Positions 3,560 through 5,129 of a stretch of DNA of 64,000 bases are shown here, in pieces. Where the stretch lies: NCBI GenBank assembly GCA_018433245.1, contig JAHDRN010000007.1:1-64000 (forward strand), in the 5' to 3' direction. This stretch comes from Candidatus Proruminimicrobium quisquiliarum (GTDB taxonomy: Bacteria > Elusimicrobiota > Endomicrobiia > Endomicrobiales > Endomicrobiaceae). The notes under the pieces were generated by a model that made no database searches, had not been told where the DNA came from, and worked only from the letters and a program-made list of their open reading frames with translations. Made by a program: the position numbers and the translations under genes. Numbering within the stretch: the stretch's first letter is position 1; each line of letters starts with the position of its first letter.

Positions 3560-3640
3560 TTCAAAACCGTATTGAGGTTTTTGAAGATTTGTGAAATGGT
3601 TGGGTCACCATTTGGATTTTATCCTAATGGTGGCTTTTTT
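3560..3640 (+). terminator. Tandem hairpins with T-run between argF and the GT-HAD gene
   Basis: Hairpin 1 pairs TTCAAAACC (3560-3568) with GGTTTTTGAA (3576-3585). Hairpin 2 pairs GTCACCATT (3604-3612) with AATGGTGGC (3626-3634) and is followed by six T (3635-3640), a proper intrinsic terminator. It ends only 25 bases before the next ATG, with no promoter visible in that gap. It could therefore be either the argF terminator with read-through or an attenuator for the next gene. Confidence 0.75.
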
Positions 3641-3665
3641 CTTGAAACTTGGAGGAGGTTAATCC

Positions 3666-4958
3666 ATGAAAATAAGCTGCGTAATACCTGCGTTTAATGA
3701 AGAATCTACGATTATTTCTCTTATACGAAACGTAAAAAAAGTAGAATCTATAAATGAAATTATTGTCGTTGACGACGGTTCGGCCGACAATACTTATAAT
3801 TTTGCAAAATCTGAAAATGTAACCGTTTTGAAACATTCTAAAAATAAAGGAAAAGGCGCTTCAATAAAAACCGGAGCGGCGTATGCTTCCGGCGAAATAA
3901 TACTTTTTCTGGACGCCGATTTGTCAAACATATCTCCGAAAAAAATAGCCTCTTTGCTTCAACCGCTTGAAAATGACGACGCCGATTTGGTTAAAGCTTC
4001 TTTTTCACGCGCAAGAGGAAGAGTCACGGAACTTGTCGTTAAACCGCTTTTTCAGGTAATAATGCCGTTCTTAAATTTCAACCAGCCGTTAAGCGGACAA
4101 TTTGCCATAAAATCTTATCTTATGAAAGAATTGGCAATTGACGATAAATGGGGAGTTGATATTCAAATTCTGCTTCAATCGGTGAAAAAAGGACTTCGTA
4201 TTATGGAAGTTGATATAGGAAAACTAATACATAAAAAACAACCGATTGAAAATCTTGCAATAATGTCAGAGCAGGTCATTAAATCAATTCTATCGGAAAT
4301 AGGAATGATAGCAAATAAACATAAACTTATTATTTTTGATTTTGACAAAACGCTTATACAAGAAAGCAGCATTGAATTTTTCGCAAGCCAATTCGGTTTT
4401 ACGAAAACGCTTAATGATCTCAGATATAAATACCGGCAGCATATTATAAGAGACTCTGAAATCACGCTTACTCTTGCGCAGTTTTTTAAGGGTAAAACTG
4501 ATGCCGATTTAAAACCCGTTTACGGCAAACTGCACCTTCAGGACAATCTAATCAAAGTTATTGAACGGCTTAAAAAAAGAAGATATGAACTTGCGGTAGT
4601 TTCTCACGCTTTTTCGCCTGTTGTTTTTTATTTTACGGAACTGCTCGGAATTCCCAAAGAAAACGTTATATGCCCCGTTCTTTTAAAAAACAAAAAAGGC
4701 GTTTATAACGGCGAAGTTCTTGCCAAAACTCATCACAATGCCTCATGCTGCGATAATATAATCTGCAAGGGAGACGCCGCGACCGAATTAATGGCGAAAC
4801 TTGACGTTAAACCTGAAGAATGCATAGCAGTGGGAGACGGACGCTCCGACGAATGCCTGTTCAGAGTTTCCGGTCTTGCTTTGGCGTATAAACCGGCTCA
4901 AAAAATCGGAGACATAACAATATCTCACATGAGCGAGATTTTAATATATGCAGAATAA
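3666..4958 (+). CDS. GpgS-like glycosyltransferase fused to a HAD-IB phosphatase
   Basis: A 430-residue two-domain protein. Residues 1-210 are a GT-A glycosyltransferase: CVIPAFNEE near 5-13, VDDGSADNT (35-43) and the DxD motif DAD at 83-85. Residues 118-205 (GRVTELVVKPLF, QPLSGQFA, WGVDIQILL, then HKKQPIENLAIMSEQVI) resemble glucosyl-3-phosphoglycerate synthase (GT81) more than ordinary GT2 enzymes. Residues 220-430 form a SerB-like HAD-IB phosphatase: motif I DFDKTL (225-230), motif II S313, motif III K368, motif IV GDGRSDE (390-396). The pairing suggests synthesis and dephosphorylation of a sugar-phosphoglycerate, giving glucosylglycerate. The substrate is inferred; a polyprenyl-phosphate glycosyltransferase is the alternative. 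A strong GGAGGAGG site precedes the ATG. Confidence 0.7.
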   Translation: MKISCVIPAFNEESTIISLIRNVKKVESINEIIVVDDGSADNTYNFAKSENVTVLKHSKNKGKGASIKTGAAYASGEIILFLDADLSNISPKKIASLLQPLENDDADLVKASFSRARGRVTELVVKPLFQVIMPFLNFNQPLSGQFAIKSYLMKELAIDDKWGVDIQILLQSVKKGLRIMEVDIGKLIHKKQPIENLAIMSEQVIKSILSEIGMIANKHKLIIFDFDKTLIQESSIEFFASQFGFTKTLNDLRYKYRQHIIRDSEITLTLAQFFKGKTDADLKPVYGKLHLQDNLIKVIERLKKRRYELAVVSHAFSPVVFYFTELLGIPKENVICPVLLKNKKGVYNGEVLAKTHHNASCCDNIICKGDAATELMAKLDVKPEECIAVGDGRSDECLFRVSGLALAYKPAQKIGDITISHMSEILIYAE

Positions 4959-4963
4959 ACAGA

Positions 4964-4992
4964 TTGTATTAACTTTTAAAATTTAGTATAAT
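4964..4992 (+). promoter_or_regulatory. Promoter of the rpsB operon
   Basis: TTGTAT (4964-4969), a 17-base spacer, then a perfect TATAAT (4987-4992). It lies about 140 bases before rpsB, leaving room for the structured leader that follows. Confidence 0.75.
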
Positions 4993-5027
4993 TTTCGCCA
5001 AGTTTAGTCTTAGAAGCTAAATACACA

Positions 5028-5102
5028 CACAAACGGATTATTCAGCGGTCCCTCGTTCAGGGGTTGAATTCGGAAGTTTGTGGAGGCATTCTTTTTAGAA
5101 TG
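5028..5102 (+). promoter_or_regulatory. Structured 5' leader of rpsB
   Basis: Nested pairings are visible in the untranslated leader. The outer helix is CACAAAC (5028-5034) with GTTTGTG (5076-5082), the middle helix ATTCA (5040-5044) with TGAAT (5065-5069), and the inner hairpin CCCT (5050-5053) with AGGG (5059-5062). A separate hairpin, CATTCT-TTTT-AGAATG, occupies 5087-5102, just before the ribosome-binding site at about 5113-5119. The leader probably serves autogenous control by S2. I cannot match it to a named S2 leader class. Confidence 0.5.
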
Positions 5103-5129
5103 AAAAAAAACCAAGGAGAGTAAGAGAGT

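Follow-up and report, generated by a model that had tools for sequence, protein, structure and literature searches.

A single reading frame between argF and rpsB in an Endomicrobiaceae genome raises the question of whether one protein can both build a glycosylated 3-phosphoglycerate and remove its phosphate. The window analyzed comprises 64,000 nt of Candidatus Proruminimicrobium quisquiliarum (contig JAHDRN010000007.1). Its first-pass annotation proposed a one-protein route to glucosylglycerate, with a glucosyl-3-phosphoglycerate synthase (GpgS)-like glycosyltransferase (GT) joined to a SerB-like HAD phosphatase. We favor, at a probability of roughly 0.6, a bifunctional glycosyl-3-phosphoglycerate synthase/phosphatase whose predicted product is glucosyl- or mannosylglycerate, a function that we infer from the two domains.

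The gene and its surroundings

The open reading frame list and translation of the whole window give one intact frame at 3666-4958 on the forward strand, from ATG to TAA. Its contig spans 276 kb (genome size 1.94 Mb), and the gene order is nusG-rplK-rplA-argF-fusion-rpsB-tsf. The features of the gene and its leader are as follows.

3602..3636, + strand: terminator-like hairpin that ends in a T run ~15 nt upstream of the Shine-Dalgarno (kept in the congener)
3651..3658, + strand: Shine-Dalgarno-like GGAGGAGG, 7 nt upstream of the fusion start (sequence)
3666..4958, + strand: coding sequence, fused glycosyltransferase/HAD phosphatase, 430 aa (reading frame and orthologues)

A congener encodes an equivalent 430-aa protein (85% identity), likewise in the order argF-fusion-rpsB. 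Nucleotide identity between the two genes by codon position is 0.86/0.94/0.54, and dN/dS is ~0.05 (0.05 for the GT part alone; dS is saturated in the HAD part). Given the congener copy between the same genes, the codon-position identities and the dN/dS, the frame is a real gene under strong purifying selection. A chance frame or assembly artefact is ruled out by the congener copy, the low dN/dS and ten full-length copies in DPANN archaea. No clean empty insertion site was found for comparison: argF is absent from the 1.5 kb upstream of rpsB in all 17 more distant relatives.

The hairpin upstream of the gene is strong (z -4.6; -6.0 in the congener) and could be either the argF terminator or a leader attenuator of the fusion gene. 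Searched against Rfam, the leader matched no known riboswitch, and its sub-threshold matches to the PyrR and L10 leaders were at chance level. Downstream, the rpsB leader (window positions 4985-5129) is 93% identical between the congeners, and about a dozen rpsB leaders from Elusimicrobiota share the pattern CACACA...GGATT...GTCCC...TGTGGAGG. The leader's best Rfam match is t44, which we take to be the rpsB/S2 leader, at 21.8 bits (under the gathering score of 44), and it is probably a divergent S2 leader.

The glycosyltransferase domain

Pfam assigns the N-terminal half to Glycos_transf_2 (2e-27). The top NCBIfam model is GpgS (NF010496; 4e-46, 157 bits), compared with 1.8e-17 for a dolichol-type family. 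The 157 bits fall under the equivalog cutoff of 262, and other fusions score 171-199 bits. The closest PDB chains are mycobacterial GpgS at 1.5e-25, versus 3.9e-11 for dolichyl-phosphate-mannose synthase (DPMS). An AlphaFold2 model built from 33 fused homologues has a mean pLDDT of 87.8 and a pTM of 0.57, so the relative orientation of the two domains is not fixed by the model. Searched with Foldseek, its first 36 PDB matches are all GpgS, followed by SerB2 and MpgS; a structural comparison of this kind had been suggested in the first-pass annotation. Compared with mycobacterial GpgS, the domain lacks an N-terminal extension and an insert in mid-domain.

In a tree that included 36 GT2s (the best non-GpgS matches from the phylum; which of them are dolichyl-type is not established), the fusions, methanogen homologues and GpgS fall on one side of a 98/96 branch. 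Together with the PDB matches, this branch rejects membership in the DPMS group, the placement that had been named as fatal to the original proposal. A tree of 82 domains places the fusions and methanogen proteins in a clade (100/100) apart from classical GpgS, and the tree with GT2s roots the GpgS/compact group differently. The GT domain is of GpgS-type ancestry, in a compact clade outside validated GpgS. The nearest domains outside the fusions are GT81-like and come from Methanobacteriaceae (39-48% identity). In the Methanobacteriaceae proteins (L067, L073, L074, L085-L088, L090-L093), the place of the phosphatase is taken by roughly three membrane segments plus a domain of unknown function.

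All of the motifs quoted in support of a GT81 assignment are present: GRVTELVVKPLF (residues 118-129), QPLSGQ (140-145), WGVDI (162-166) and MSEQVI (200-205). The domain and its mapped residues are listed here, with Mt GpgS numbering as in PMC2581804.

3666..4307, + strand: GpgS-like (GT81-type) glycosyltransferase domain, residues 1-214 (profile, PDB sequence, fold, tree)
3912..3920, + strand: DxD motif D83-A84-D85, metal/nucleotide, equivalent to Mt GpgS D134-S135-D136 (alignment; PMC2581804)
4017..4031, + strand: GRVTE, residues 118-122, acceptor-carboxylate motif, equivalent to Mt GpgS 184-188 (alignment; PMC2581804)
4083..4097, + strand: QPLSG, residues 140-144 (alignment)
4149..4160, + strand: W162-G-V-D165; Y229..E232 in Mt GpgS, W189 and D192 in mannosylglycerate synthase (alignment; PMC2581804)
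4230..4232, + strand: H189, equivalent to the putative metal ligand H258 of GpgS (alignment; PMC2581804)

In Mt GpgS, V186 and T187 contact the carboxylate of the acceptor 3-phosphoglycerate, R261 the UDP phosphates and Y229 the uracil, and W189/D192 of Rhodothermus marinus mannosylglycerate synthase (MgS) are the counterparts of Y229/E232 (PMC2581804). The query keeps E54, K114, D134, D136, G184-R-V-T-E188, Q207-P-L209 and H258. Across the alignment of GpgS and fusions, the equivalents of K114, D134, D136, GRVTE and QPL are invariant or nearly so, GRVT strictly. S81, R101, Y229, E232, R256, N260 and R261 become D37, H57, W162, D165, L187, K191 and Q192. R256 is invariant in 31 classical GpgS and is L, I or V in HAD fusions and methanogen homologues; N260 is nearly invariant in classical GpgS, and both it and R261 are changed in HAD fusions. 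Judged as a candidate GpgS, then, the protein has the catalytic and acceptor-carboxylate residues (E54, K114, D134, D136, V186, T187, H258) and lacks those of the base and phosphate loop (S81, R101, Y229, R256, N260, R261). Because GRVT is kept and the nucleotide/phosphate-loop residues are changed, the alignment leaves a predicted carboxylate acceptor well supported, and the nucleotide and sugar not fixed.

The phosphatase domain

The C-terminal half had been called a complete HAD-IB phosphatase, and this description holds: it matches Pfam HAD at 3e-14 and the HAD-IB model TIGR01488 at 60.7 bits (cutoff 45), and motifs I-IV are intact, with D225, D227, T229, S313, K368, D391 and D395 all present.

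4314..4955, + strand: HAD-IB SerB-like phosphatase domain, residues 217-430 (Pfam, TIGR01488, fold)
4338..4352, + strand: HAD motif I, D225-F-D227-K-T229, nucleophile and general acid (alignment)
4602..4604, + strand: HAD motif II, S313 (alignment)
4749..4769, + strand: family signature C362-x4-C367-K368, K368 being the HAD motif III lysine (alignment)
4836..4850, + strand: HAD motif IV, D391...D395 (alignment)

Against the SerB model TIGR00338, the domain scores 74.8 bits, under the equivalog cutoff of 144. Its substrate pocket is not that of SerB. E20, M43, F49 and R56 of Methanocaldococcus jannaschii phosphoserine phosphatase (MjPSP), of which E20 and R56 are the serine-binding residues, are S, R, D and L in the query; they are replaced in every intact fusion and retained in three true SerBs. 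A C-x4-C-K motif surrounds the catalytic lysine in nearly all intact fusions. Because the phosphoserine-specific residues are lost and C-x4-C-K is gained, the domain looks like a phosphatase that has left the phosphoserine substrate rather than SerB.

The HAD domains of the two fusion groups form one clade (95/88) apart from the SerB references; the sole "reference" inside it (L172) is, on inspection, a second Terrimonas fusion. This common clade and the shared C-x4-C-K fit a single, long-kept pairing of the GT and HAD domains. Both motif I aspartates are lost in the fusion of a Brachyspira MAG (L075 3922-5343), and the second of them in the second Terrimonas fusion (L172 53-1546), which suggests pseudo-phosphatase versions. 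A separate 425-aa protein (L148 1873-3150; G000:C26) combines a HAD phosphatase-like domain with degenerate motif I and a long coiled-coil-like stretch.

Distribution and probable lateral transfer

The genomes were scanned with a GT81-focused alignment, and the resulting counts are lower bounds. The search for the same fusion elsewhere, suggested in the first-pass annotation, found it at no fewer than about 40 loci. Among the matches listed, full or near-full fusions occur in Woesearchaeota, Pacearchaeota, Diapherotrites, many Bacteroidota, three CPR bacteria and the Brachyspira MAG; the fusion is thus kept across phyla. Cultured carriers include Niastella, Terrimonas and Longitalea. Among sampled genomes, the fusion was found in 10 of 371 from the DPANN phylum, 8 of 395 Bacteroidota and 2 of 341 Elusimicrobiota, both of the latter from the window's genus.

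Ten DPANN genomes encode the full-length fusion at 57-69% identity. With Bacteroidota as outgroup, the two Endomicrobiaceae proteins are nested within the DPANN sequences (97/99 and 88/87), and constraining the ten DPANN sequences to one group is rejected (p-AU 0.015, or 0.018 with the long Diapherotrites sequence removed). This nesting suggests archaea-to-bacteria transfer, and we regard it as moderate evidence favoring transfer of the fusion from DPANN archaea to this genus. Beyond the original proposal, then, the fusion is a family of wide distribution, and DPANN archaea are the probable source of the copy in this genome. Phage and plasmid collections yielded no full-length fusion, and alignment-guided scans of viral contigs recovered ordinary GpgS and no fusion. 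A single-protein scan of the viral contigs gave no match because the chosen peptides are lineage-specific.

Of 37 Bacteroidota loci, 18 have a universal stress protein next to the fusion and 8 an envelope-stress-like response regulator/histidine kinase pair; the loci are related, so neither count is of independent events. Such neighbors are as expected if the product is a stress solute. In DPANN and Elusimicrobiota, the neighbors of the fusion are housekeeping genes with no pathway hint, and the DPANN neighborhoods are not conserved. In Pseudarcicella hirudinis (L096 5995-7362), a stop codon separates the GT and HAD parts, which share a reading frame, and universal stress protein and two-component genes lie alongside.

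Proposed function

We predict that the N-terminal domain is a retaining GT-A enzyme that would bind a sugar nucleotide and a divalent metal via D83/D85 and probably H189, and would place a hexose on O2 of 3-phosphoglycerate, with the acceptor carboxylate sitting on the GRVT loop. The HAD-IB domain would then remove the 3-phosphate of the intermediate via a phospho-aspartate at D225. This domain probably descends from a phosphoserine-phosphatase-like enzyme. Phosphoserine is the 2-amino analogue of 3-phosphoglycerate, so a domain of this type is a natural source for a glycosyl-3-phosphoglycerate phosphatase. The end product would be glucosyl- or mannosylglycerate, a compatible solute, and the fusion would couple the two steps. 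The acceptor, sugar, product and any stress or osmotic role are inferred. Counted against this reading are the GpgS score under its cutoff, the changes at R256, N260 and R261, the failure to find GalU or GlgC, the lack of pathway neighbors in DPANN and Elusimicrobiota, the membrane segments of the methanogen homologues and the loosely placed domains of the model.

Regarding the sugar donor, we identified RmlA and GlmU over cutoffs, along with two ManC-like nucleotidyltransferases, both under curated cutoffs and one fused to a phosphohexomutase. Neither GalU nor GlgC exceeded its cutoff in profile searches of the genome, which leaves no evident UDP- or ADP-glucose donor, and the UDPGP family (PF01704), another potential UDP-glucose source, gave only a marginal match in a 1635-residue frame. 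With RmlA, GlmU and ManC-like enzymes found but no GalU or GlgC, glucose is a guess and mannose a real alternative, and the product is more safely named glycosylglycerate. Of the glucosylglycerate route, the joining of a GpgS-type GT to a SerB-like HAD domain stands; glucose itself is put in doubt by placement outside validated GpgS, the R256/N260 changes, MgS-like W162/D165 and the missing GalU/GlgC.

The same mechanism could run on mannose, with GDP-mannose and 3-phosphoglycerate giving mannosyl-3-phosphoglycerate and then mannosylglycerate. We consider this possible, if the less expected outcome. W162 and D165 match W189/D192 of R. marinus MgS (PMC2581804), the Pfam mannosylglycerate synthase domain is matched at or above cutoff in some relatives, Rubrobacter xylanophilus MpgS is a close structural match, and a fused mannosylglycerate synthase/phosphatase is already known (mgsD; PMC6240254). 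The two ManC-like enzymes and the lack of detectable GalU/GlgC point the same way, but those enzymes are under curated cutoffs, D37 and H57 in the nucleotide pocket leave the base undecided, and both sequence and structure are nearer GpgS than MpgS. The acceptor could also differ, since the methanogen proteins with the nearest GT domains (Methanobacteriaceae, 48%) carry three membrane segments and no phosphatase, and these homologues and the fusions alike have lost the equivalents of R256 and N260, which lie close to the acceptor/phosphate loop. In that case the GT would modify some other acceptor, either phosphorylated or in the membrane, and the phosphatase would hydrolyze the resulting product or an unrelated phosphate ester. 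The invariant GRVT acceptor-carboxylate motif and the fit of a phosphoserine-family phosphatase to a 3-phosphoglyceryl substrate make this rather unlikely.

A role for the HAD domain as the cell's missing phosphoserine phosphatase, fused to the GT without functional coupling, has some appeal: the genome encodes SerC (G000:C6:107022-108089; L150) and no SerB over cutoff, and the fusion's own HAD domain is its best SerB match. The absence of SerB is not tied to the fusion, because 40 relatives, all but one of which (the congener) are without the fusion, also have no SerB over cutoff. The congener keeps the fusion without a clear SerC, and the DPANN hosts tested have no SerC. On these distributions a role in serine synthesis appears unlikely; with E20, M43, F49 and R56 all replaced as well, we reject the candidate and give it very little weight. 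The idea of a plain GT2 at the N terminus, akin to dolichyl/polyprenyl-phosphate-sugar synthases, for which the generic Glycos_transf_2 match speaks, is less credible still, given that GpgS is far ahead by profile, PDB sequence, fold and tree.

For the bifunctional synthase/phosphatase, there is an even chance that these proteins constitute a widespread, undescribed family, each member making a glycosylglycerate on its own, that moved between domains through gene transfer. Its phosphatase would be a former phosphoserine phosphatase put to a new use and marked by C-x4-C-K, forming a class apart from both the mycobacterial histidine phosphatase and the MpgP type. If so, many uncultured lineages, including tiny-genome DPANN archaea, would have a one-gene glycosylglycerate route where nobody would look for it, and phosphoserine phosphatases would have been co-opted for a sugar-acid substrate new to them. 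The easy crossing of domains would be explained by a self-contained single gene, which could also be a handy part for osmolyte production. In any case, the fusion proteins should not be annotated as SerB or plain GT2.

Comparison with known systems

Mycobacterium GpgS (GT81; Rv1208, PDB 3e25/4y6n/7p5l) shares with the query the fold and the DxD, K114, GRVTE, QPL and H258 equivalents at ~33% identity. The query differs in being compact, in E232 to D, Y229 to W, R256 to L and N260 to K, in its separate clade and in its fused phosphatase. MpgS of R. xylanophilus (PDB 3f1y, 3o3p) has the same fold at 28% identity by Foldseek, but is larger (318 aa modelled), without a phosphatase domain and more distant than GpgS.

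As the first-pass annotation noted, a fused mannosylglycerate synthase/phosphatase is known; it is MgsD of Dehalococcoides (PMC6240254). Like the query, it carries synthase and phosphatase for a glycosylglycerate on one polypeptide. We take its domains to be GT55 and HAD-IIB MpgP, so the architecture would be analogous rather than a homologous fusion. M. jannaschii PSP (SerB, PDB 1f5s) has its catalytic residues and the HAD-IB fold (TM-score 0.80-0.83 by target) in common with the query domain, which differs in its lost serine-recognition residues, its gained C-x4-C-K and a score under the SerB curated cutoff.

We found no report in the open-access papers searched of this fusion or of a SerB-like domain as this phosphatase, which is in line with the earlier suggestion that the latter would be new and is weak evidence of novelty. 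The mycobacterial phosphatase GpgP (Rv2419c) is a histidine phosphatase (PMC3866925), of a fold unrelated to the HAD domain that is predicted to catalyze the same reaction here.
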